Under the pieces are notes generated by a model, which searched no databases, had not been told where the DNA came from, and worked only from the letters and a program-made list of their open reading frames with translations. Below, piece by piece: positions 19,372-47,745 of a stretch of 64,000 bases of DNA. Position 1 is the stretch's first letter; each line of letters starts with the position of its first letter. Origin of the DNA: Methanosphaera stadtmanae. GTDB lineage: Archaea; Methanobacteriota; Methanobacteria; Methanobacteriales; Methanobacteriaceae. The translations under genes were made by a program, and so were the position numbers. The stretch lies in NCBI GenBank assembly GCA_015062805.1, contig SUTQ01000001.1, positions 1 to 64,000 on the forward strand, given 5' to 3'.

Positions 19372-20184
19372 CTATTGTATTTTTAGGTGGATATGTTTTA
19401 CCATATGGAATTTATCGGATATTATCATTTTTGATTTTGTCACTAAATTGAATTGACTTTTGTCCGTAATGTTTTTGAAATAATCCCTTGTTTCTATTAT
19501 TTCAACATCACTTCCTATTTTTTTAACAAAATCTTCAACATTATCCACATAGAAGTACATTATTGCATCATCTTTACCTAATTTTTTCAGGTACATATTT
19601 GACTGTTTTATTCCAAACTTTGAAACAGCGTCAAATACAACTTCAACCTCGCCCAATCCCTTTAGATGTTTTAAAAAATCAATGACTTCCTCTTCTTTAA
19701 AGTAATAGAAAACTCCTGAGGATACTACTAGGAAGGGACCCTTTGATGTTTTCAGTACCCTGTTTATCCAGTTGTAATCAAACATGGAATAAGCAAGACA
19801 AATATCTCTTTCATTATTTCCAATAACTTGCCTTCTTAAGTCTATCACATTCTCCAAGTCAAGTTCATAAAACAATGTTTTATTATTATCATTTCTGTGA
19901 AAGAGTGTTTCCAATCCACATCCAACATTAATTATACTTCCATCGGGGTACCTGTTAATAAAATCTTGAATACATTTGTCCATATTCATGGATCTTATTG
20001 CACTGGACACTAAGGTGTATTCGTTTTCACCCTCAAAACTAAGAAATTTCTCGGGAATTCTGGATGCTATTTCCAATGTCTTTCTATCATTTAATATATA
20101 ATTACAGTTTTTTGTTGCATAAATTCTTCCCCTTAATGGTACAAACAGTGTTTCTTCGATATTTCCCAATTCTATATTGGACAT
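19372..20184 (-). CDS. LCM/COG3315-type O-methyltransferase
   Basis: A SAM-dependent methyltransferase of the leucine carboxyl methyltransferase-like family (COG3315), often found with secondary metabolism. It has the SAM motif IINVGCGLETLF near residue 82, the acidic ELDLENVIDLRR segment after it and a SSGVFYYF strand corresponding to the family's E-G-hhhY motif. The ATG at 20184 follows GAGGTG but at very short spacing; an upstream extension to 20235 overlaps the neighbouring gene and is less likely. It lies 14 bases downstream of the ATC-hydrolase-like gene on the same strand and is a distant paralogue of the methyltransferase at 20.8-21.7 kb. Confidence 0.7.
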   Translation of the reverse strand: MSNIELGNIEETLFVPLRGRIYATKNCNYILNDRKTLEIASRIPEKFLSFEGENEYTLVSSAIRSMNMDKCIQDFINRYPDGSIINVGCGLETLFHRNDNNKTLFYELDLENVIDLRRQVIGNNERDICLAYSMFDYNWINRVLKTSKGPFLVVSSGVFYYFKEEEVIDFLKHLKGLGEVEVVFDAVSKFGIKQSNMYLKKLGKDDAIMYFYVDNVEDFVKKIGSDVEIIETRDYFKNITDKSQFNLVTKSKMIISDKFHMVKHIHLKIQ

Positions 20185-20197
20185 ACACCTCTTTTGA

Positions 20198-20794
20198 TTA
20201 TTTTCTGATAAACAGGAAATCACAATTCTCACCATCCTTACATAACGTGTGTTGGCGTGTAAAATTAATGTTTTTTAAGTCGCCATAGTTAATATCATCC
20301 ACGAAGCAAAACATTGGCCCCAACTCTTCAAGACCATACTTCTTAAAAATCTGTTGGTAAATGCACTGGGTACATTCAAATTTCAGAATATTATTGTTTG
20401 ACAAATCATTATGCCATTGATAGTGCCAACCATAACCACTACCCCAATTGAACAGATAAGGTAATAAAATACCCATTATCCATAGAAAATAGGGTATTTT
20501 TTCAAGCTTCCTGAAAATCATTGAATTTTTTTCTACATACTGCCACATATGGTGGCTAAGAATTTGAAATGATTCTTCTTTAGAGTATTTCTTCTGTAAT
20601 TGTTCATATAATGCGATTGATGTGAAAATGTTAGATAAATTGTAGTTTCCATTATCACAATATTCCCTGTTTTCACTGATTAAAATATCGATATGTTCTA
20701 TGATGTTTACCTGCATGGAATAGTCTATTTTCTTATAATAATCACAGTATCTGCTATGTTTTATCAATCTTTCTCCATTGTATTGTTTTTTCAT
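20198..20794 (-). CDS. L-2-amino-thiazoline-4-carboxylate hydrolase-like protein
   Basis: A 198-residue protein resembling the ATC hydrolase family. The signature is the C-terminal half: GYGWHYQWH near residue 124, FECTQCIYQQIFKKYGLEEL, a FCFVDD segment and RQHTLCKDGENCDFLF at the end, with conserved cysteines and histidines. ATC hydrolase opens a thiazoline ring on the way to cysteine, but many family members sit beside methyltransferases and their true substrates are unknown. The start ATG at 20794 has AAGGTT upstream. It lies between two COG3315-type methyltransferases on the same strand, an arrangement that suggests they modify the same small molecule. Confidence 0.7.
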   Translation of the reverse strand: MKKQYNGERLIKHSRYCDYYKKIDYSMQVNIIEHIDILISENREYCDNGNYNLSNIFTSIALYEQLQKKYSKEESFQILSHHMWQYVEKNSMIFRKLEKIPYFLWIMGILLPYLFNWGSGYGWHYQWHNDLSNNNILKFECTQCIYQQIFKKYGLEELGPMFCFVDDINYGDLKNINFTRQHTLCKDGENCDFLFIRK

Positions 20795-20824
20795 ATTATA
20801 AACCTTGAATCTTTATTTATATTG

Positions 20825-21667
20825 TTAATATTCTGTTTTATCAAATATGCTTATTCTATTATTTCTACTTCTTAAAAATGGTGAAATCAATCTGATAAAT
20901 ATTGGAGAATATTTTTTCATTTGATCGGTTAAGTTGTAATTTGCCCGTAGTTTATAGGATGGACATAATTTTTCAAAGTCCTCACTATCATCTATTCCCC
21001 ATTTAAATATGGCTCCTGTTGTTCTAACAGTGTCATGTGCCTTCTGATTCTTAACCATCCATGAACTCATTAATTCTAAAAGTAGTACTACACTATTGAA
21101 TTTTTGAGATATTTGATTAAATAATTGACTTACCTCTTGTTCATCAAGATACATTAAGAAACCTTCTGCTATTATTAAAACATTATCCTTGTTTTTTATT
21201 TTATTTATCCATTCAAAGTCTAATGCTGATGATGCTATGTTAATTACCCTTTCATTTTTTACGATTAGTTTTTCTCTTAGATTTATTACGTCTTCGAAGT
21301 CTATGTTATACCACATAATTTGTCCATTATCTACTCTACTGAATCTATCATCTAGTCCACAAGCAATGTTAATTATTGTACCGTTGGGGTTATTGTTGAT
21401 GAATTCCTTGGTTTGTTTATCTAATATTACAGTTCTTGATGAGCATCCCCAAAAATTCATTTTGTTGGTTGAATTTTTAAATCTTTTTTTGAAGTTATAA
21501 TCAAGATTATCTATTATTTCTACTGCAGTGTTGTCAATGAATTCGGGATTTTCTTTTTTACTTTCTATAGCTCTTGCATATAAAGGTACTAGCATTGTTT
21601 CGCTTACAGCAGTTAAATCTATTTTTTCTTTCATTGATTTTTTTTCTACTTTTTGTTTTTTAATCAT
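20825..21667 (-). CDS. LCM/COG3315-type O-methyltransferase
   Basis: A 280-residue class I methyltransferase of the COG3315 group. It has the family opening VSETMLVPLYARA, the SAM motif IINIACGLDDRF near residue 95, the IDFEDVINLREKL segment and IIAEGFLMYL, the typical E-G-hhhY motif near 170. The ATG at 21667 has no ribosome-binding site and lies about 18 bases from a TATA-like box (TTTATATATT), so the transcript may be leaderless. A perfect TTTAGG-TATA-CCTAAA palindrome abuts that box on the upstream side, suggesting control by a DtxR-type metal-dependent repressor. It is the first gene of a three-gene minus-strand cluster with the ATC-hydrolase-like gene and a second methyltransferase. Confidence 0.75.
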   Translation of the reverse strand: MIKKQKVEKKSMKEKIDLTAVSETMLVPLYARAIESKKENPEFIDNTAVEIIDNLDYNFKKRFKNSTNKMNFWGCSSRTVILDKQTKEFINNNPNGTIINIACGLDDRFSRVDNGQIMWYNIDFEDVINLREKLIVKNERVINIASSALDFEWINKIKNKDNVLIIAEGFLMYLDEQEVSQLFNQISQKFNSVVLLLELMSSWMVKNQKAHDTVRTTGAIFKWGIDDSEDFEKLCPSYKLRANYNLTDQMKKYSPIFIRLISPFLRSRNNRISIFDKTEY

Positions 21668-22107
21668 ATTTTATTCAAATAAATATATAAATTTAGGTAT
21701 ACCTAAATTTTTTGTTAATTAAAAACTCAATGATTAACAGAAGTAACTTCTTGTTAGATGATTAACAAAGAAAAATCGGGGATGGATGTTAATAAACATT
21801 TAAAATATGCAAATAAAATAATAAATAATAAGAATACTTAAAAATAACTTTTTTCTTTCCTTTTTTAACAAACTTTCAAGATTAACTCATTATTATATAA
21901 ACCGCCACTCTACTTAGCAATAAAGGGGTCTATTTTATTTTGTATCCTTCTGAAACAACATATTTTACATTCATTCTTGTTGTTCGTTTATATTCATGTG
22001 TTCTTTTCTACAGGTTATCATATGTTTTTTTTTTAAATATTATAAATTAATTAAATCAATTTTCCTATTAGAAAAGTCTTTATAAATTAAATGCAATATT
22101 ATATAAT
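21668..22107. other. Intergenic region with operator and a weak gene remnant
   Basis: It contains the palindromic operator-like site at 21692-21707 and a small dyad (AGAAG-TAA-CTTCT) near 21740. On the minus strand, about 21930-22009 reads as a short protein-like tail (KRTHEYKRTTRMNVKYVV) ending at a stop, perhaps the 3' end of a lost gene. No complete gene was recognised. Confidence 0.35.
21692..21707. promoter_or_regulatory. DtxR-like palindromic operator
   Basis: A perfect inverted repeat TTTAGG-TATA-CCTAAA, flanked by TATA-like sequence on both sides. It resembles binding sites of DtxR-family iron or manganese repressors. On the minus strand it directly precedes the TATA box of the COG3315 methyltransferase at 20825-21667. 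On the plus strand it follows TATATAAA (21684-21691), the same order as at 31.4 and 42.9 kb. The regulator is not in this window. Confidence 0.55.
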
Positions 22108-29832: not shown

Positions 29833-30792
29833 TTAAATTACTTCGAAACCAACAAGTTTTATTTTATTGGAAATCAATTCTGGGTTTTCATCAATTTCTT
29901 CAGATAGTTTTGTTGTTATGTATTTTTTATTATCGTCTGGGAAAACAGTAGCTATCTTTAAATTTGAATTGTCCATTATAACACTAGCTAAAAAATTGGC
30001 TCCACCAGAAATGCCGATACCCAAACCAAATTCTTTAGCTATTTTTTTTGCCATGTTGATAGCATCTAAATCTTCAATTAAAATGATATCATCGATTATG
30101 TCTTGTTCAACGATTCCTGGAATGAAATCATCTCCAATTCCTTCAATCATGTGGCTTCCTTCCACCATACCCATTTTAAGTATTGATAATGTGGATGGTT
30201 CTAATGCAAATATTTTTGAATTAGGATTGTTTTCTTTTATTTTTTTTCCAATTCCCATTAAAGTTCCACCAGTTCCAATTCCTGAAACAAAAGCATTTAC
30301 ATCGGGAAGGGCATCAATGATTTCTTGACCTGTTGTTTTATATTGGGCTTCTACATTCAATTCATTATCAAACTGAAGCGGTCTGTATGCATTATTTTCT
30401 ATTGCAAAATCTTCTGCCAATTCTAATGCTTTTTTAAATCCCCCTTCTTTTTTGGATACTAAGTGGACATGAGCACCATACATTTCAATGAGTTTTCTTC
30501 TTTCTAAACTCACCCAATCCGGCATAAATATATGAACATCATGACCAAAAAGTGCTCCAATAGCACTAAAAGCAATACCTGTATTTCCACTTGTTACTTC
30601 AACAATGCTTTGATCTTCATGTAAATTGCCATTTTCTCGTTCTTTTTGGATAATATATAATGCAATTCTGTCTTTTATACTTCCAGAATAATTGTAATAT
30701 TCAAGTTTTGTGTATATGCTTCCTTGTTTTCCTTCATAATCATAATTGATTTTTATCATTGGTGTATTACCAACTAACTTTTCAATATTCAT
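29833..30792 (-). CDS. cysK: Cysteine synthase family protein
   Basis: A PLP enzyme of the O-acetylserine sulfhydrylase/cystathionine beta-synthase family, which makes cysteine from an activated serine and sulfide. The PLP lysine is in YNYSGSIKDRIAL (about 34-46), followed by the phosphate/substrate loop TSGNTG near 67 and the GIGTGGTLMGIG glycine loop near 173. The length of 319 residues is normal and there is no regulatory CBS domain. The ATG at 30792 (fourth codon of the longest frame, which begins with TTG) is preferred, with GGAT just upstream. Upstream lies a 770-base non-coding region with operator-like palindromes; they are about 600 bases away and probably not its promoter. Confidence 0.85.
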   Translation of the reverse strand: MNIEKLVGNTPMIKINYDYEGKQGSIYTKLEYYNYSGSIKDRIALYIIQKERENGNLHEDQSIVEVTSGNTGIAFSAIGALFGHDVHIFMPDWVSLERRKLIEMYGAHVHLVSKKEGGFKKALELAEDFAIENNAYRPLQFDNELNVEAQYKTTGQEIIDALPDVNAFVSGIGTGGTLMGIGKKIKENNPNSKIFALEPSTLSILKMGMVEGSHMIEGIGDDFIPGIVEQDIIDDIILIEDLDAINMAKKIAKEFGLGIGISGGANFLASVIMDNSNLKIATVFPDDNKKYITTKLSEEIDENPELISNKIKLVGFEVI

Positions 30793-31564
30793 AGTATCCA
30801 ATCCAATATAATAAAAAAAATATAACTCTGTCCTTATTTTACATATAAAAATAGTGGAATTTCATTGTAAAATTTTTTAGGTTTTTAGATAATGATAAAG
30901 ATTTAATCTAAAAACAAACTTTTTCTAATGATATTATGTATTACATTTAACTTTAATTTTTCTATGGAATAATCTGTAAAATTAATTTTAGTTAAGTTAC
31001 GATAAAAAGTGCATTAAAAATATCTGATTTTCAATGTTGGTTGAATATGATAAGCTTTTAAATTTGATTATTATAAAATGAGTAACATGCTTAAAAATAA
31101 ATACTGGTTTAAAAAGATATTAAAAAAAATTTAATTTACAAAAAAGAAAATAATTTCTAGTTTTTAGGATATGGTTAGTTTTATTTTCTTTTTGTTTTTC
31201 TATTATGTCAATAAGGAGTGGTTGAGTTAATTGACTATATCAGAATCTTTTTTTATAATAGGCGATTTAATTATTACTATTTTTATTCATAAAATAATGT
31301 TATATATTTTTTTTGAGTGGTCTGTTTTTATGTCAATTTTTAACTCGGCTATCTGACTAAGAGTTAGGTTTCTATAGGATATAATTAATTTTTAGGAAAA
31401 CCTAAATTCTTAGTCAATTAAATGTTGTACTCTAAACTATATAAAGGTTTGGGTATACCTAAAAATTTTTCTAAAAGGAAACTTAATAAATTTGAAATAA
31501 CAATAAAATACATGGGAAAAAATAAAATAAAAAATTAAAATTCATTTTTAGTTAAATAGGAGAG
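30793..31564. other. Intergenic region containing one copy of a dispersed repeat
   Basis: About 770 bases upstream of cysK and downstream of the DUF815 gene. From roughly 31190 to 31465 it resembles the region at 42640-42897, with the strongest identity at 31389-31432. The repeat ends in a TATA box framed by two palindromes, listed separately. Downstream of that promoter, up to 31564, only a nine-codon frame (31512-31538) is found. No RNA family was recognised. Confidence 0.5.
31391..31463 (+). promoter_or_regulatory. TATA box framed by two DtxR-like operators (copy 1)
   Basis: Operator 1 at 31391-31406 is TTTAGG-AAAA-CCTAAA, a perfect inverted repeat. TATATAAA at 31438-31445 is a good archaeal TATA box. 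Operator 2 at 31448-31463 is TTTGGG-TATA-CCTAAA. The centres of the two operators are 57 bases apart. Transcription would run to the right, but no gene lies there before the 3' end of the opposing DUF815 gene. An untranslated RNA is possible. Confidence 0.5.
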
Positions 31565-41935: not shown

Positions 41936-42520
41936 ATGAAAAAAACACAAGTGCATAAAATAAAAATAAAGGATATCGAATTAGAATATTCTGTGACATA
42001 TCGTAAGGTTAAATACATACGTTATGAGTTAAGAAAAGGAAAATTGTTTCTGATTTTACCAAAGAGTAATAAGGACAATATTGAAGAAGTAATTCATAAA
42101 AAGGACAACTGGATTTATGGGAAAATAATGGAATACAATAAAGAAAAAGAAATCCTATCTGATAAAACGAAGGATTTGAATTTAATTCAAAGATCTTTGC
42201 CTGAATTGAAGTCTTTGGTAAATGTCTATATTGAAAAATATGAAAAAATTCTGAATGTTAAGGTTAATCGTCTTCAATTTAGGGATACTGTTTATAAATG
42301 GGGTAGTTGCAGTACTTTAAGAAATGTTACTTTATCTAAAAATTTACGTTTTCTTCCGGATAGGTTGGTAGAATACATAGTTTATCATGAATTAACTCAC
42401 ATCATTGTTTTGGCACATGATGATAAGTTTTTTGAAATTATTAAACGAGAATTTCCAAATTATATTCTTTGTGATGAAAAGTTGAATGAATACAATTTTT
42501 TAATAGAAAATACATTTTAA
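41936..42520 (+). CDS. YgjP-like metallopeptidase domain protein
   Basis: A 194-residue soluble protein of the YgjP/DUF45 (WLM-like, M48-related) family. The zinc site HELTH lies near residue 151, with a third ligand in HDDKFFEII near 162, and the preceding KWGSCSTLRNVTLSKNLRF segment is a family hallmark. These predicted zinc peptidases are widespread, but their substrate is unknown. No ribosome-binding site is visible before the ATG. A repeat-containing non-coding region follows. Confidence 0.8.
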   Translation: MKKTQVHKIKIKDIELEYSVTYRKVKYIRYELRKGKLFLILPKSNKDNIEEVIHKKDNWIYGKIMEYNKEKEILSDKTKDLNLIQRSLPELKSLVNVYIEKYEKILNVKVNRLQFRDTVYKWGSCSTLRNVTLSKNLRFLPDRLVEYIVYHELTHIIVLAHDDKFFEIIKREFPNYILCDEKLNEYNFLIENTF

Positions 42521-42973
42521 AATTTATTTTTAAAAAATAGAATATATGATAAAGAAAATAATTCGTTTTTGACTCTTATTGGATGTTTGTGAGAGTCCTA
42601 TGGAGTTTTGTTATTTTCTTTGTCGTTATTACAAGTTATATTATGTTTTTTTTATAAGGAGTGGTGAGTTATAGACTTTTAAAATTTTTCTCTAATAGGT
42701 GATTTAAATTTGAAACTATTTAATTGTAGGAATAATAGTTTTTTTTAATAGAATGTTTTTATTAGTCTTATTTAATTTAACTCATTTTGACTAGAAGTAG
42801 GATAATTCATATGGCTAAATTTTTAGGATAACCTAAACTTCTTAGTCAATTAAATGTTGTACTTAAGAGTATATAAATGTTTAGGTATACCTAAAAATAT
42901 TTTTAATATTTAAATCATTTAAAAGTACAATCAGCTTATCCAATTTTATTCTTTTAATTTTTATTATTTTTAT
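42521..42973. other. Convergent intergenic region with the second copy of the dispersed repeat
   Basis: About 450 bases between two genes whose 3' ends face each other, so no promoter is expected. From roughly 42640 to 42897 it resembles 31190-31465; the block at 42838-42862 is identical over 25 bases to 31408-31432. It ends with a TATA box framed by two palindromes, listed separately. No open frame follows. Confidence 0.5.
42822..42895 (+). promoter_or_regulatory. TATA box framed by two DtxR-like operators (copy 2)
   Basis: Operator 1 at 42822-42837 is TTTAGG-ATAA-CCTAAA, TATATAAA lies at 42870-42877, and operator 2 at 42880-42895 is TTTAGG-TATA-CCTAAA. The order and spacing are nearly those of copy 1 (58 against 57 bases between operators). 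Transcription would run right into the 3' end of the phosphoesterase gene, opposite to its coding strand. Confidence 0.5.
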
Positions 42974-44059
42974 TTATTTTTTTAACTTTAATAAAACTAT
43001 TTCGGAGTTTGTTCCCCATCTCATAGGAATATCCATTGAGCCCACACCTGTTGTAACGTGTAAATACCTTCTTTTATTATTTTTCAATGTTTTCTCAAAT
43101 AATCCCATATTGTGTCCTTCATAAATATAATTACCCAGAGAAGTAACAGGATAAAATTGACCACCATGGGTATGTCCAGATAATTGAAGATCAAAACCAA
43201 TGTTGGATAATTCATTCCATCCATTGGGGATATGATAATTCACGATATTGATTTTATCTTCTTTAATGAAGCTTTTTAATTCTTCTGCTGTTGGCATAGG
43301 AATATCACCAAAACTAAAACTCAAACCATAAATGTTTAAATCATAATAATCCATCCCTTCATTTTCCAAAATGATTATTTCGGCATTTTTACAAGCTTTA
43401 TGTACATTTTCCAATCCAGGATAATAATCATGATTTCCTGAGGTGAAAATTATGGGTATGTCCACATTTTTTAATGATAAAAAATCATCTTTTTCCACTG
43501 AACAAGAACCATCTGCCAAATCACCGGATATAATTGCTAAATCACAAATATCCGATACTTCTTTTAATTTATTGGCAACATCTTCTATAATCTGTTTATG
43601 TCTTATTGAGCCAAAATGCACATCAGATAAATGTGCAATTGTATATTCCTTTTCTAAATTATCAAATTTTAATATTTTCTCTTTTATCACGATTCTATGT
43701 GCATTGTAATAAGCATAAATTCCAATTATTAATATTAATAATAATGAGAGGGCTATCATTTCCATAGGAATTATTATAAATCTGCCAATTATGAAAATCA
43801 AGACTTCATCTATAAAAATCATTACCAAAAACCATTCCCAAACACCAAATATTGTGGAGAGCAAACGACCAATCATGGAAGATTTCTTCTCTTCAAAAAG
43901 CATTGGTACAGATTGTAACAGACCCAATAATAATGTTAGGGTAATTGTATAAACATCGTTTATTCCTCCAAAGTATGAAAAGAGAAATTTTAATAAAAAG
44001 AATTGAAAAATCATGTAAATCGGTGTTCCATACAATACTCTTCGGGTTCTAAAACTCAT
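42974..44059 (-). CDS. Membrane-bound calcineurin-like phosphoesterase
   Basis: The N-terminal 130 residues form four membrane helices. They are followed by a metallophosphoesterase domain with all metal-binding motifs: HLSDVHFG, GDLADG, GNHDYYPG and SGHTHGGQF. The arrangement matches the YkuE/YaeI-type phosphoesterases, some of which act on lipid pyrophosphates such as UDP-diacylglucosamine. The substrate here is unknown. The ATG at 44059 is chosen because GGAG lies eight bases upstream; the frame begins at 44080. The gene stands alone, with its 3' end facing the dispersed repeat. Confidence 0.8.
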   Translation of the reverse strand: MSFRTRRVLYGTPIYMIFQFFLLKFLFSYFGGINDVYTITLTLLLGLLQSVPMLFEEKKSSMIGRLLSTIFGVWEWFLVMIFIDEVLIFIIGRFIIIPMEMIALSLLLILIIGIYAYYNAHRIVIKEKILKFDNLEKEYTIAHLSDVHFGSIRHKQIIEDVANKLKEVSDICDLAIISGDLADGSCSVEKDDFLSLKNVDIPIIFTSGNHDYYPGLENVHKACKNAEIIILENEGMDYYDLNIYGLSFSFGDIPMPTAEELKSFIKEDKINIVNYHIPNGWNELSNIGFDLQLSGHTHGGQFYPVTSLGNYIYEGHNMGLFEKTLKNNKRRYLHVTTGVGSMDIPMRWGTNSEIVLLKLKK

Positions 44060-44186
44060 GTCACTGTCTCCAATTGTCAATTACTGTAATTAATATATTA
44101 TTGAGTATATTATTCTATGATTAAAAAAGAATCTATACTTTTTCATGTAAATATATGATGATTAAAAAATAAAATATAAAAGGAGG

Positions 44187-45083
44187 TTATTTGTTTTCTA
44201 AAACATCTTCTTTAAGATTGGACCTTGTAAATGGAACTTCTAATCCTATGTCTAATGCTTTATCAATGTTTTTTTGTCGTTTTTTCTTTTTATTGGTGGA
44301 TAGTTTTCTAAGCATTCCCAAACCAAATTTACCTTCATCCGTTTCAACAACCTCTAGAATGCCATCTTCAATGGCATTATCAATAAGTGAAGCTCCAATG
44401 TCTGTACGTTTAATAACTGTTGACCATCCTGCTTTTGCACCTACAGATCCGCAGGAGAAATCAGATAGTTCTGCTACATAATCCATACAGTATTGACATC
44501 CGCTTTGTTCATATCCATGAGTTTCCTTTATAGGGATTGCGGTTTCATCATCAGAAGTTCTAATGAATAATTTACCTTTTGAAATGTCCATTTTCACTAC
44601 TTTAGAGGGAGTAGTGTCTGCTTTGTCTTGTATGAATGCTTTTAATGAATCATATGGGAAGTTTTCCATACAGTAAATACCCGCTATTAAAGCTATTTTG
44701 TCGGTAACGTGTCTTAATCCCATGGGATATGTTTGCATTTTACGAATTCCCATAACTTGGCAGGGGGTTCCAACAGTTCCTATTTTTTCAAGCCCATAAC
44801 TTCGTGTAGCTTCTTTAAGCATTGCAAGATTGGGACACATTGTGTATTTTGTACCGGAACCCTTAAGAATTTCTTTTTTGGTTGTAGCTACGATAGGTTC
44901 TGGTTTCCAAGGTTCATCCCCTTCTCCAGCTACGATAGTTCCATCAATAATATTCTTTTCCAATGCATATACGAGTAATGCAGTTACAATACCACCATCT
45001 TGGGCTTTTTTTAAGATTTTATTATCTGTTGCTCTAGCAGTTAAAATTTCTTGATGTGGTCCTAAGACTGAATCTTGTATCAT
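44187..45083 (-). CDS. frhB: F420-reducing hydrogenase subunit beta
   Basis: The iron-sulfur flavoprotein subunit that carries FAD, takes electrons from the hydrogenase core and reduces coenzyme F420. It matches FrhB closely: QDGGIVTALLVYAL near residue 30, GSGTKYTMCPNL near 77, GTVGTPCQVMGIRKMQTYP near 104, CMENFPY and THGYEQSGCQYCMDYVAELSD with the cluster cysteines near 190-205. The length of 298 residues is normal. It is the last gene of frhADGB, 13 bases after frhG. The complex is cytoplasmic. Confidence 0.93.
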   Translation of the reverse strand: MIQDSVLGPHQEILTARATDNKILKKAQDGGIVTALLVYALEKNIIDGTIVAGEGDEPWKPEPIVATTKKEILKGSGTKYTMCPNLAMLKEATRSYGLEKIGTVGTPCQVMGIRKMQTYPMGLRHVTDKIALIAGIYCMENFPYDSLKAFIQDKADTTPSKVVKMDISKGKLFIRTSDDETAIPIKETHGYEQSGCQYCMDYVAELSDFSCGSVGAKAGWSTVIKRTDIGASLIDNAIEDGILEVVETDEGKFGLGMLRKLSTNKKKKRQKNIDKALDIGLEVPFTRSNLKEDVLENK

Positions 45084-45096
45084 ATTTCAAGCCTCC

Positions 45097-45882
45097 TTAT
45101 TCTAATCCCATTTCTTTTTTGATTTGATCTATTGGCCACCAGCTACGTGTACATTGATAGTAACATAAACCACATTTTACGCATCTGTCACAGTTGAATG
45201 AGGGTCTTCCATCTTTCATCGTCATTGCTCTTGTTGGACATGCGGCCGCACAAGCGCCACAACCAATACAGATTGATTGATTAATAATTCTTTTTTGCAA
45301 GTCACAACCACATGCATCTTTATTTTCTGTAAATTTCATAAATGGTGCAAGATAATCCAGGTCATTGTTTACTGCTGCTAATATTACCTTTTTAATCATT
45401 TGGGGGGATGGTGGACATCCAGGTATTGCCATATCTACTTTAACTAGGTGTTGTAATGCTAGGAATGATGAATGTTGGGGCTGTGCTTTTTGACCTCCTT
45501 TAGCATAAACTGTAAATCCACCAGTACATGCACATGAACCTAAAGCCACTAATAAATCAGATTTTTCTCTAGCTTCTTTAAGTTCTTTAATGGAATGTTC
45601 ATCTTCAAGACAGACGGATCCTTCAATTAATACGATGTCCATTTTTGGCATTTCCCAACAATCCACTAAAGTTTGTCCGTATACGATGTCTACAGCATCT
45701 AATAAATCAACCAGTTCATCATAGTTTTCAGTAAAAGACATTAAATCACCAGTACATCCTGAAAGATGTATGTATCCAATTTTTAATTTGTTTCCTGAAC
45801 TTCGTGTATTGTTTGCAGGAGCTTTATTTTTATTCTCCTCACTTTTTAACATAGTTTTTAGTTTTTCAAACAAGGTATTCAC
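45097..45882 (-). CDS. frhG: F420-reducing hydrogenase subunit gamma
   Basis: The small electron-transfer subunit of the [NiFe] hydrogenase. The proximal-cluster region reads SGCTGD (Cys43, Asp46), with later ligands in GSCACTGG and PGCPPSP. The C-terminal ferredoxin-like part has two [4Fe-4S] motifs: [12 protein letters not shown] near 208 and [14 protein letters not shown] near 230. Asp46 stands where other hydrogenases have cysteine; structures of Methanothermobacter Frh report an aspartate ligand to this cluster, so it is probably native. The frame opens with GTG at 45882; a TTG at 45873 fits the GGTGAA site slightly better, so the start is unsure by three codons. The N-terminal Asn/Ser-rich extension is poorly conserved. 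Confidence 0.92.
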
Positions 45883-45912
45883 CTTCTTTATTCTTAATCA
45901 TAATAGTTATAA

Positions 45913-46389
45913 TCATTTAGATAACATAGAATTTAAGGTTTCTATAGTTTTATTTACTGTTTGTGGAATCTTATCTTCTAAAACTTTACTTAAACCCATT
46001 TTCATTTCCAGAGGAATGTTTTCTGGTTGAATTACAATTAATTTGATGTTAATTTTATCTTTTAAATCGTGTAATGGATAAGTGGCTGATAATCCATGAA
46101 CATCCATATAACGATCTTCTTCACGAATTTGGTCTAAATCTAAAACTTTAATGGTTCCAGATTTTTCGTTTAGTGATGCAATATCGATAATTATGATGTT
46201 TTTCCATTTTTCCTGAGGTAATGTGAATATATAATGGGGGGCACTAGTTGCTCCATCGATTATAAATGTATCTCCCGGAAATTTTATATTGTTCTCTTTG
46301 ATATATCTTATAACTTCTGGACCAAATCCGTCATCACCGTAAAGTATGTTTCCACATCCAATAATTAAATTTTCATGATTATATGACAT
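45913..46389 (-). CDS. frhD: Hydrogenase maturation endopeptidase
   Basis: Protease of the HyaD/HycI family that removes the C-terminal tail of the FrhA precursor after nickel insertion. The family signature GCGNILYGDDGFGPEV is at residues 11-26, with a metal-binding aspartate in DGFGP, and DGATSAPHY and a VHGLSATYPL segment carrying a metal-ligand histidine follow. The length of 158 residues is normal. It is the second gene of the frh operon, between frhA (13 bases) and frhG (30 bases). Confidence 0.92.
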   Translation of the reverse strand: MSYNHENLIIGCGNILYGDDGFGPEVIRYIKENNIKFPGDTFIIDGATSAPHYIFTLPQEKWKNIIIIDIASLNEKSGTIKVLDLDQIREEDRYMDVHGLSATYPLHDLKDKINIKLIVIQPENIPLEMKMGLSKVLEDKIPQTVNKTIETLNSMLSK

Positions 46390-46402
46390 TCAATCCCTTC
46401 AA

Positions 46403-47677
46403 TTATAGCTGTACAAAGTCTTCTTTAACAACTTTTTTATTCTCATCATCTACAACAATCATGTGGGTAGCACAGGATAAACAGGGGTCATATGCTCTTA
46501 TTACATCCGGAGCATAATCATAATGATTGCCTTCTGTTGCCATACCCATTGTTGGGATGTTCCATGTTGTTGGTACAATACAGTTATATTCACTTATAAA
46601 TCCGTCAGATGAAATTTTGGCAGTGTGTAAATTTGTTCCTCTTGGTCCTTCAATTACCCCAACACCTAAACGGTCTGTTCCTTCTAATGTAAATTTAGCC
46701 ATTGTCTGTGCTGAAGGGTCAATTTTATCTACTAACTCAAGTATTCGTTCTGCTGAATTTACCATTTCTTGTGCTCTTGCAAGGTGTTGTGCTTTAACTC
46801 CAACTTCTTTGAATTTTCTGTATTTTTTAGCTCTTGCTCTAGGTCCAGTTTCTACGGGGGTATTATCATATAGGGGTATTTGTGAACAAGCAGATTTTCC
46901 AATTTTTTTTGCAGTTTTCATGGTTTCTTCTGCAAATTCTTCATCTTCTTGTGGAGTATATTTATCAGCATACCATGAATTTGGCATAATTTCATCAATG
47001 CTTTGTAATGAGATGTTTTGTCTTGATCCATATGTGTTACTTGTTGCCAGTACAGGTTGTGCATGTTTTCCTAAATCTTTTGGAAAATCTTTAGCTTCTA
47101 TGTATCCGGCCATCTGTTCAACATGTTTTTCTATTAAGTTCATTACTCCATTTATTCTGGTTTTAATTTTGTTTTTTGTGTTTTTGGTAATGTTATGTGC
47201 CATACCACCGATTCTTATGTCGGAAGGATGTATTCCTTCACCACCAATTACATCTTCAACAAATTGTGCTTGTTTTCTAATTTCAGATATGTTTTTGACT
47301 GCTTGTTTGTAATCTTCGGATGGTACAAAGTCTGGTGCCACAAGGAAATGGTGTATGGCGTGACTGTTTATCATATGTGCATTTAAGCACATTTCTCTAA
47401 GTATTTGCGCTGTTTTTGGTATTTCTATTTTCAATGAATCATCAATAGCTTCTACTGATGCTAAGGTATGTGTTACTGGACATACTCCACATATCCTTTG
47501 TACGATTACTGGTGCAGATTCTGGTCTTTTTCCTAGGACCATCTTTTCTATTCCACGTACAGGAGTTATGCTGTAATAACGTCCGGTGGTTACTATTCCT
47601 TCATCGTCAACTTCTAATGACAAAGTTGCATGCCCCTCTTGTCTTGAAGTGGGGGATATGGTAATAGTTTTACTCAA
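46403..47677 (-). CDS. frhA: F420-reducing hydrogenase subunit alpha
   Basis: The catalytic large subunit with the [NiFe] centre. Nickel is bound by the N-terminal RICGVCPVTH (Cys63, Cys66) and the C-terminal DPCLSCATH (Cys399, Cys402). The precursor continues 19 residues beyond His405, the tail that FrhD is expected to cleave. All four ligands are cysteines, so it is the selenium-free form. The start is a TTG at 47677 preceded by GGTGAT, the same arrangement as at the TTG start at 25340. It is the first gene of frhADGB, with a TATA-like box about 70 bases upstream. Confidence 0.93.
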   Translation of the reverse strand: MSKTITISPTSRQEGHATLSLEVDDEGIVTTGRYYSITPVRGIEKMVLGKRPESAPVIVQRICGVCPVTHTLASVEAIDDSLKIEIPKTAQILREMCLNAHMINSHAIHHFLVAPDFVPSEDYKQAVKNISEIRKQAQFVEDVIGGEGIHPSDIRIGGMAHNITKNTKNKIKTRINGVMNLIEKHVEQMAGYIEAKDFPKDLGKHAQPVLATSNTYGSRQNISLQSIDEIMPNSWYADKYTPQEDEEFAEETMKTAKKIGKSACSQIPLYDNTPVETGPRARAKKYRKFKEVGVKAQHLARAQEMVNSAERILELVDKIDPSAQTMAKFTLEGTDRLGVGVIEGPRGTNLHTAKISSDGFISEYNCIVPTTWNIPTMGMATEGNHYDYAPDVIRAYDPCLSCATHMIVVDDENKKVVKEDFVQL

Positions 47678-47745
47678 TTATATCACCTATTGTATTTTAT
47701 AAATTTAAATAATTAGCCTTCTAAAATAATTTTATGGATTTTTTT

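Follow-up and report, generated by a model that had tools for sequence, protein, structure and literature searches.

The DNA analysed here, referred to as the window, is a stretch of 64,000 nucleotides from Methanosphaera stadtmanae (contig SUTQ01000001.1, positions 1 to 64,000). Between a DUF815 gene and a PALP gene (29833-30801) it carries two palindromes, TTTAGG-N4-CCTAAA at 31391-31406 and TTTGGG-N4-CCTAAA at 31448-31463, whose starts are 57 bases apart, exactly as an earlier note on this DNA had placed them. Operator palindromes of this DtxR type are rare in the genome and are also found at iron-uptake genes. Exact TTTRGG-N4-CCYAAA sites occur five times in the window and form two operator pairs, compared with a mean of 0.027 sites and no pairs in 300 first-order Markov resamplings of it. 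In the whole 2.1 Mb genome there are eight sites, five of them inside the window, against none for the reversed control pattern. Since the resamplings contained no pairs and the reversed control gave no sites, the two palindromes and the accompanying TATA sequence are not a product of chance. The random scatter over the genome that the earlier note had named as a counter-indication was not seen, with just these eight sites, one of them before feoB.

The sequence TATATAAA at 31438-31445 on the plus strand reads as TTTATATA on the minus strand, directly 3′ of the operator at 31448-31463. Together with an A-rich BRE, TTTATATA is the usual archaeal box, and here the BRE-like ACCCAAACC precedes it. 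Read on the minus strand, copy 1 comprises operator 1 (31463-31448; TTTAGGTATACCCAAA), which lies upstream of the BRE region and partly overlaps it, then CC, the TATA box (31445-31438), approximately 26 bases, a putative purine start near 31415, and operator 2 (31406-31391), which would lie just 3′ of the start and also form a small hairpin in the RNA. The same operator-TATA order is found in relatives, where feoA-like genes (L013, L017, L024, L026, L027, L028) are immediately preceded by an operator-TATA-operator block and the TATA box, TTTATATA or, in L017, TTTAAATA, points towards feoA. This orientation, and the position of TTTATATA after operator 1 on the minus strand in both copies found in the window, identify the minus strand as the direction of the promoter.

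The TATA-like TATATAAA that had been read on the plus strand is therefore present where it was described, but it faces the other way as an archaeal box. A plus-strand promoter sending an RNA towards the 3′ end of the DUF815 gene could still appeal to the TATA-like character of TATATAAA. On that strand, however, just 80-100 or so unconserved bases follow, every homologue has its conserved part on the minus side, and the way the block faces feoA in relatives sets the direction, which makes such a promoter very improbable. Neither a plus-strand transcript starting at 31465-31475 nor an RNA antisense to the DUF815 gene, both proposed earlier, fits a minus-strand transcript that would start near 31415 and run away from the DUF815 gene and in the same direction as it. 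The description of an orphan promoter holds for the minus strand, on which the promoter reads left into a 590-base gap before 30801 with no visible protein gene for it to drive.

The probable regulator and its metal signal

The genome encodes a full-length DtxR protein (PF01325, E 5.8e-21), whose sequence indicates a FeoA-type extension at the C-terminus and which has PDB matches to IdeR, DtxR, ScaR and MntR structures. We take it to have Cys at the position of DtxR Cys102 and Glu at that of DtxR Met10, a combination that leaves the reading of the metal site ambiguous. The operator occurs before feoB, beside feoA (L001), with a second site, TTAGG-N4-CCTAA, upstream near feoA. It also occurs between sufC/sufB-like and mvhD/mvhG-like hydrogenase genes (L008, G000:C40:28085), which suggests iron control of Fe-S assembly or of the Mvh hydrogenase. 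Because the same operator stands before feoB and beside suf-like genes, the signal is probably iron, which would be the most economical choice over manganese. The earlier description of DtxR-type operators in a tight-repression layout holds.

Other genes are preceded by operators of this kind. The fifth site in the window, at 21692-21707, is single and perfect, is followed at once by TTTATATA, and lies before a gene for an LCM-type methyltransferase. The gene order after it (19372-21707) is LCM-type methyltransferase, ATC_hydrolase and a second LCM-type gene, and the operator-methyltransferase arrangement recurs in another genome, G014 (L055); this locus may encode a metal-regulated pathway. 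In two other genera (L012 and L021, in G029 and G035), paired or triple operators precede a small histone-like open frame.

A conserved minus-strand unit in Methanosphaera

The second operator pair of the window belongs to a second copy of the unit (42548-42895), also on the minus strand and laid out as copy 1, with operator 1 at 42880-42895, the TATA box TTTATATA at 42870-42877 and operator 2 at 42822-42837. From the alignment of homologues, copy 1 would give a small RNA of 276 nt (31140-31415), starting approximately 26 nt past the TATA centre and ending at a U-rich stretch, and copy 2 one of 300 nt (42548-42847); the alignment of the two copies spans the whole transcribed part. Homologues were collected by a DNA search of 20 Methanosphaera genomes, mostly from rumen and gut, followed by nhmmer over the retrieved loci. 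Approximately 40 were found in 18 of the 20 genomes, at one to five per genome. What they have in common is the pair of operators, a 5′ hairpin that covaries, two C-rich blocks predicted to be unpaired and an end rich in U. When a model of the core sequence (R1) was run on 120 genomes of the family, matches were confined to the genus, apart from one weak match in G130.

Several homologues occupy genomic positions common to different species, either beside DUF815 and proC-like genes or beside frhB and YgjP genes. In several species, an RNA of the copy 2 type directly follows the frhADGB operon (42974-47677 in the window; also L058, L060 and L063). At one locus (L059, G007:C120) two copies lie in tandem, separated by approximately 650 bases and with promoters that hardly differ; the pair is a recent local duplication. 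Loci of another genus, L014 and L032 (G023:C57, two copies) and L033 (G023:C267), also carry paired operators with TTTATATA, followed by AT-rich sequence in which no long gene is evident, and possibly hold an equivalent RNA of unrelated sequence.

A leftover of a mobile element, as the earlier note had suggested, would account for a repeated unit of variable copy number and for the tandem copies in G007. Against this, the positions common to several species, the conservation of the unit and its covarying structure across 18 of the 20 Methanosphaera genomes, and the fact that no element genes or terminal repeats were noted make it the most far-fetched of the explanations considered. It is also highly doubtful that the unit is a long 5′ leader of the PALP gene or a small-protein gene. 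Copy 1 and the gene that follows it share a strand, with 340 bases between the U-rich end and that gene, but the gene after copy 2 (YgjP-like, 41936-42520) is convergent. Among the homologues the 3′ neighbour varies and is usually convergent on the opposite strand, and the RNA is thus not a leader. No conserved open reading frame was found among the homologues, whose frames mostly have fewer than 30 codons. A conserved minus-strand unit of this kind is consistent with the metal-regulated small RNA that the earlier note had envisaged.

The minus-sense RNA contains more C than G in all 40 homologues. Among the features conserved in the family, the 5′ hairpin P1 (GACUAAGAA...UUCUUAGUC) encloses operator 2 and hairpin D has a CUCCUACA loop; the others are blocks A (AAAUCACCUAUUA) and B (AACUCACCACUCCUUAUU), the sequence AACAUAAUAUAACUUGUAA and a hairpin resembling a terminator (AAGAAAAUAA...UUAUUUUCUUU). 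In copy 1, the covarying arms of P1 are GACUAAGAA (31407-31415) and UCUUAGUC (31355-31362). Block A, the conserved anti-Shine-Dalgarno segment (UUAAAUCGCCUAUUA, 31256-31270), is predicted to be unpaired at just 0.44, and the near-invariant, C-rich block B (AACUCAACCACUCCUUAUU, 31210-31228) at 0.86; the terminator-like hairpin AAAAGAAAAUAA...UUAUUUUCUUUUUU covers 31140-31196. In copy 2, block D (42715-42739) forms the hairpin ACUAUU-AUUCCUACAAUUA-AAUAGU with a C-rich loop, block A is UUAAAUCACCUAUUA (42693-42707; predicted unpaired 0.93), block B is AACUCACCACUCCUUAU (42654-42670; 0.89) and the terminator-like hairpin is AAAGAAAAUAAC...AAUUAUUUUCUUU (42550-42622); blocks A, B and D of this copy are all predicted to be unpaired at 0.89-0.93.

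On a 28-sequence alignment, RNAalifold recovered the operator palindrome alone, with no further stem and no compensatory pair, and missed P1. Since this alignment is AT-rich and gappy, P1 was examined by an arm-swap test, on which the structural claim consequently rests. The homologues with altered 5′ arms (L044, L081, L047, L049, L051 and L080) paired best with their own 3′ region when compared with 37 others. Furthermore, the stem is kept in L048, L079, L069 and L052 through G-U pairs that are possible only in the minus-strand RNA. No Rfam family scored above its gathering threshold, and the only matches were to microRNAs at chance level (E 0.4-0.5).

These features bear on a further explanation, in which the unit acts at the level of DNA or protein, by offering additional DtxR sites of high affinity through which the repressor is titrated or sensed, or yields a non-regulatory transcript. 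The operators are indeed the best conserved part, and there are one to five copies per genome. However, near-invariant blocks also lie inside the unit, well away from the operators, and the hairpin arms covary with G-U pairs of one strand, so that this explanation appears improbable.

Candidate targets of the putative RNA

The gene hdrA encodes an iron-sulfur protein, and block A (UUAAAUCACCUAUU) can form 14 base pairs with its Shine-Dalgarno region. The complementary 14-mer, AATAGGTGATTTAA, lies at the hdrA start and Shine-Dalgarno region in 16 of the 20 genomes. In the organism's own genome it occurs three times, namely in copy 2, at the hdrA Shine-Dalgarno region and in one unannotated stretch. 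The other matches in the 20 genomes are mostly the RNA copies themselves, although it also precedes ferredoxin genes in G003 (L211) and G007 (L221) and, in G002, an oxidoreductase gamma-like gene (L204) and an Fe-S-flavoprotein-like gene (L224). One genome, G014, keeps the hdrA site with no RNA detected; this genome is 77% complete.

When 788 sampled genes were ranked against block A, hdrA came first, and the top 20 included Hcp, an Fe-S-flavoprotein-like protein, FrhA and FrhG. The candidate site at frhA (46403-47677) is its Shine-Dalgarno region, CAATAGGTGATATAA, at 47678-47692 on the minus strand. Both frhA and frhG belong to the frhADGB operon that precedes the copy 2 type of RNA. Ranking the same genes against block D placed a ferredoxin-type protein first, MvhA second, HdrB sixth and a polyferredoxin eighth. 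In this genome (G000) the combined top 40 contained nine of the 28 iron genes (p = 3e-6), a figure obtained with an iron-protein word list that had been extended once the first ranking was available. With no further change to that list, the block A targets were enriched for iron-sulfur genes in the held-out genome G015 (p = 0.002; first match HdrC-like), and no enrichment was found among the predicted targets in the held-out genome G008. The target search gave no convincing target, and no iron target, for block B, the most conserved block.

Two controls reduce the weight of the hdrA match. Eleven of its 14 bases (AGGTGATTTAA) are ancestral, since they also occur in genera in which a search for the RNA gave no match, and a comparison of two species showed runs of at least 14 bases retained in approximately 10% of orthologous Shine-Dalgarno regions. 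The part of the match that is specific to the genus is its extension to AATAGG. In the hdrA 5′ regions (L180-L196), ATAGTCTTAAT is conserved upstream, besides the Shine-Dalgarno block. It is complementary to GACUAU of many RNA copies, in an order that forbids one continuous duplex.

The ancestral core, the result in G008 and the lack of an iron target for block B also speak for a metal-regulated pair of RNAs that acts broadly on ribosome binding sites, or on non-iron mRNAs, with the hdrA match reflecting an ancestral strong Shine-Dalgarno sequence. The C-rich blocks resemble the 16S anti-Shine-Dalgarno sequence, and AUCACCU is exactly the core sequence of the 16S 3′ terminus. However, hdrA is the top-ranked gene for both block A and block A1, whereas the plain 16S tail places no iron genes in the top 20 (G000), and shuffled flanks around the same core give a mean of 1.2 iron genes in the top 20 compared with five for the real ones. 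This reading is rather unlikely, though a good deal less so than the other alternatives.

Probable iron sparing and comparable RNAs

The explanation that we favour, and consider fairly probable on the evidence of the sequences, is a family of DtxR-repressed iron-sparing small RNAs, with two paralogues in this genome, that would pair with Shine-Dalgarno regions, above all that of hdrA, and would be the archaeal equivalents of IsrR, FsrA or RyhB. The sequences themselves show the promoter anatomy, the paralogues and their conservation, the covarying hairpin, the lack of a reading frame, the DtxR protein and the hdrA complementarity; we infer that the RNA is transcribed, that iron is the signal and that targets are repressed, as follows. 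As long as iron is plentiful, an iron-loaded DtxR-family repressor would occupy both operators, one on either side of the TATA box and start, and would block the box and start and keep the promoter silent. With too little iron, the cell would make a G-poor RNA of approximately 280-300 nt that has the 5′ hairpin, leaves its C-rich blocks exposed and ends in a U-rich terminator. These blocks would then cover the Shine-Dalgarno regions of mRNAs that encode iron-sulfur and [NiFe] proteins, chiefly that of hdrA, and the resulting block on translation of iron-rich proteins would spare iron.

To our knowledge, the iron-sparing small RNA strategy has so far been known from bacteria alone, and no archaeal precedent was found in the open literature, to which the search was confined. 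The closest system in anatomy is IsrR of Staphylococcus, a Fur-repressed iron-sparing RNA of 174 nt (PMC9410917), which likewise has two boxes and C-rich regions and is found genus-wide. It differs in being bacterial, shorter, a single gene and controlled by Fur instead of DtxR, and the likeness is one of layout, with homology not expected. FsrA of Bacillus, RyhB of enterics and PrrF1/PrrF2 of Pseudomonas are likewise repressed by iron and silence the mRNAs of iron proteins; PrrF, like the RNA in this genome, exists as a duplicate pair, and FsrA has a C-rich motif that binds Shine-Dalgarno sequences. These RNAs, however, are bacterial, Fur-controlled and unrelated in sequence, and act with the chaperones Hfq or Fbp. 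MrsI of Mycobacterium tuberculosis, as cited in PMC9410917, is an iron-related RNA predicted to be under a DtxR-family repressor, IdeR; it is bacterial and, as far as is known, unrelated in sequence.

Among archaea, sRNA154, sRNA162 and sRNA41 of Methanosarcina mazei are trans-acting RNAs of a methanogen, and loop 2 of sRNA154 and sRNA41 mask ribosome binding sites. In the accessible parts of those reports their context is nitrogen supply rather than metal, and neither DtxR operators nor a sequence relation is mentioned. The s479 RNA of Haloferax volcanii is linked to metal transport, with zinc transport and CRISPR-Cas named in the title of its report (PMC8155600), and is not described as iron-sparing.

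The broader claim is finely balanced: that this would be the first archaeal family of iron-sparing RNAs, multicopy and DtxR-controlled, throttling heterodisulfide reductase, hydrogenases and ferredoxins through anti-Shine-Dalgarno pairing, and independent in origin of the bacterial RNAs. As Methanosphaera stadtmanae can be cultured, the RNA reading is directly testable. Few known cells demand as much iron as methanogens do. If the reading is correct, the iron-sparing RNA strategy of bacteria would have arisen again in Archaea under a different repressor, and, through heterodisulfide reductase and hydrogenases, the supply of iron would be coupled directly to methanogenesis in archaea of the gut and rumen.
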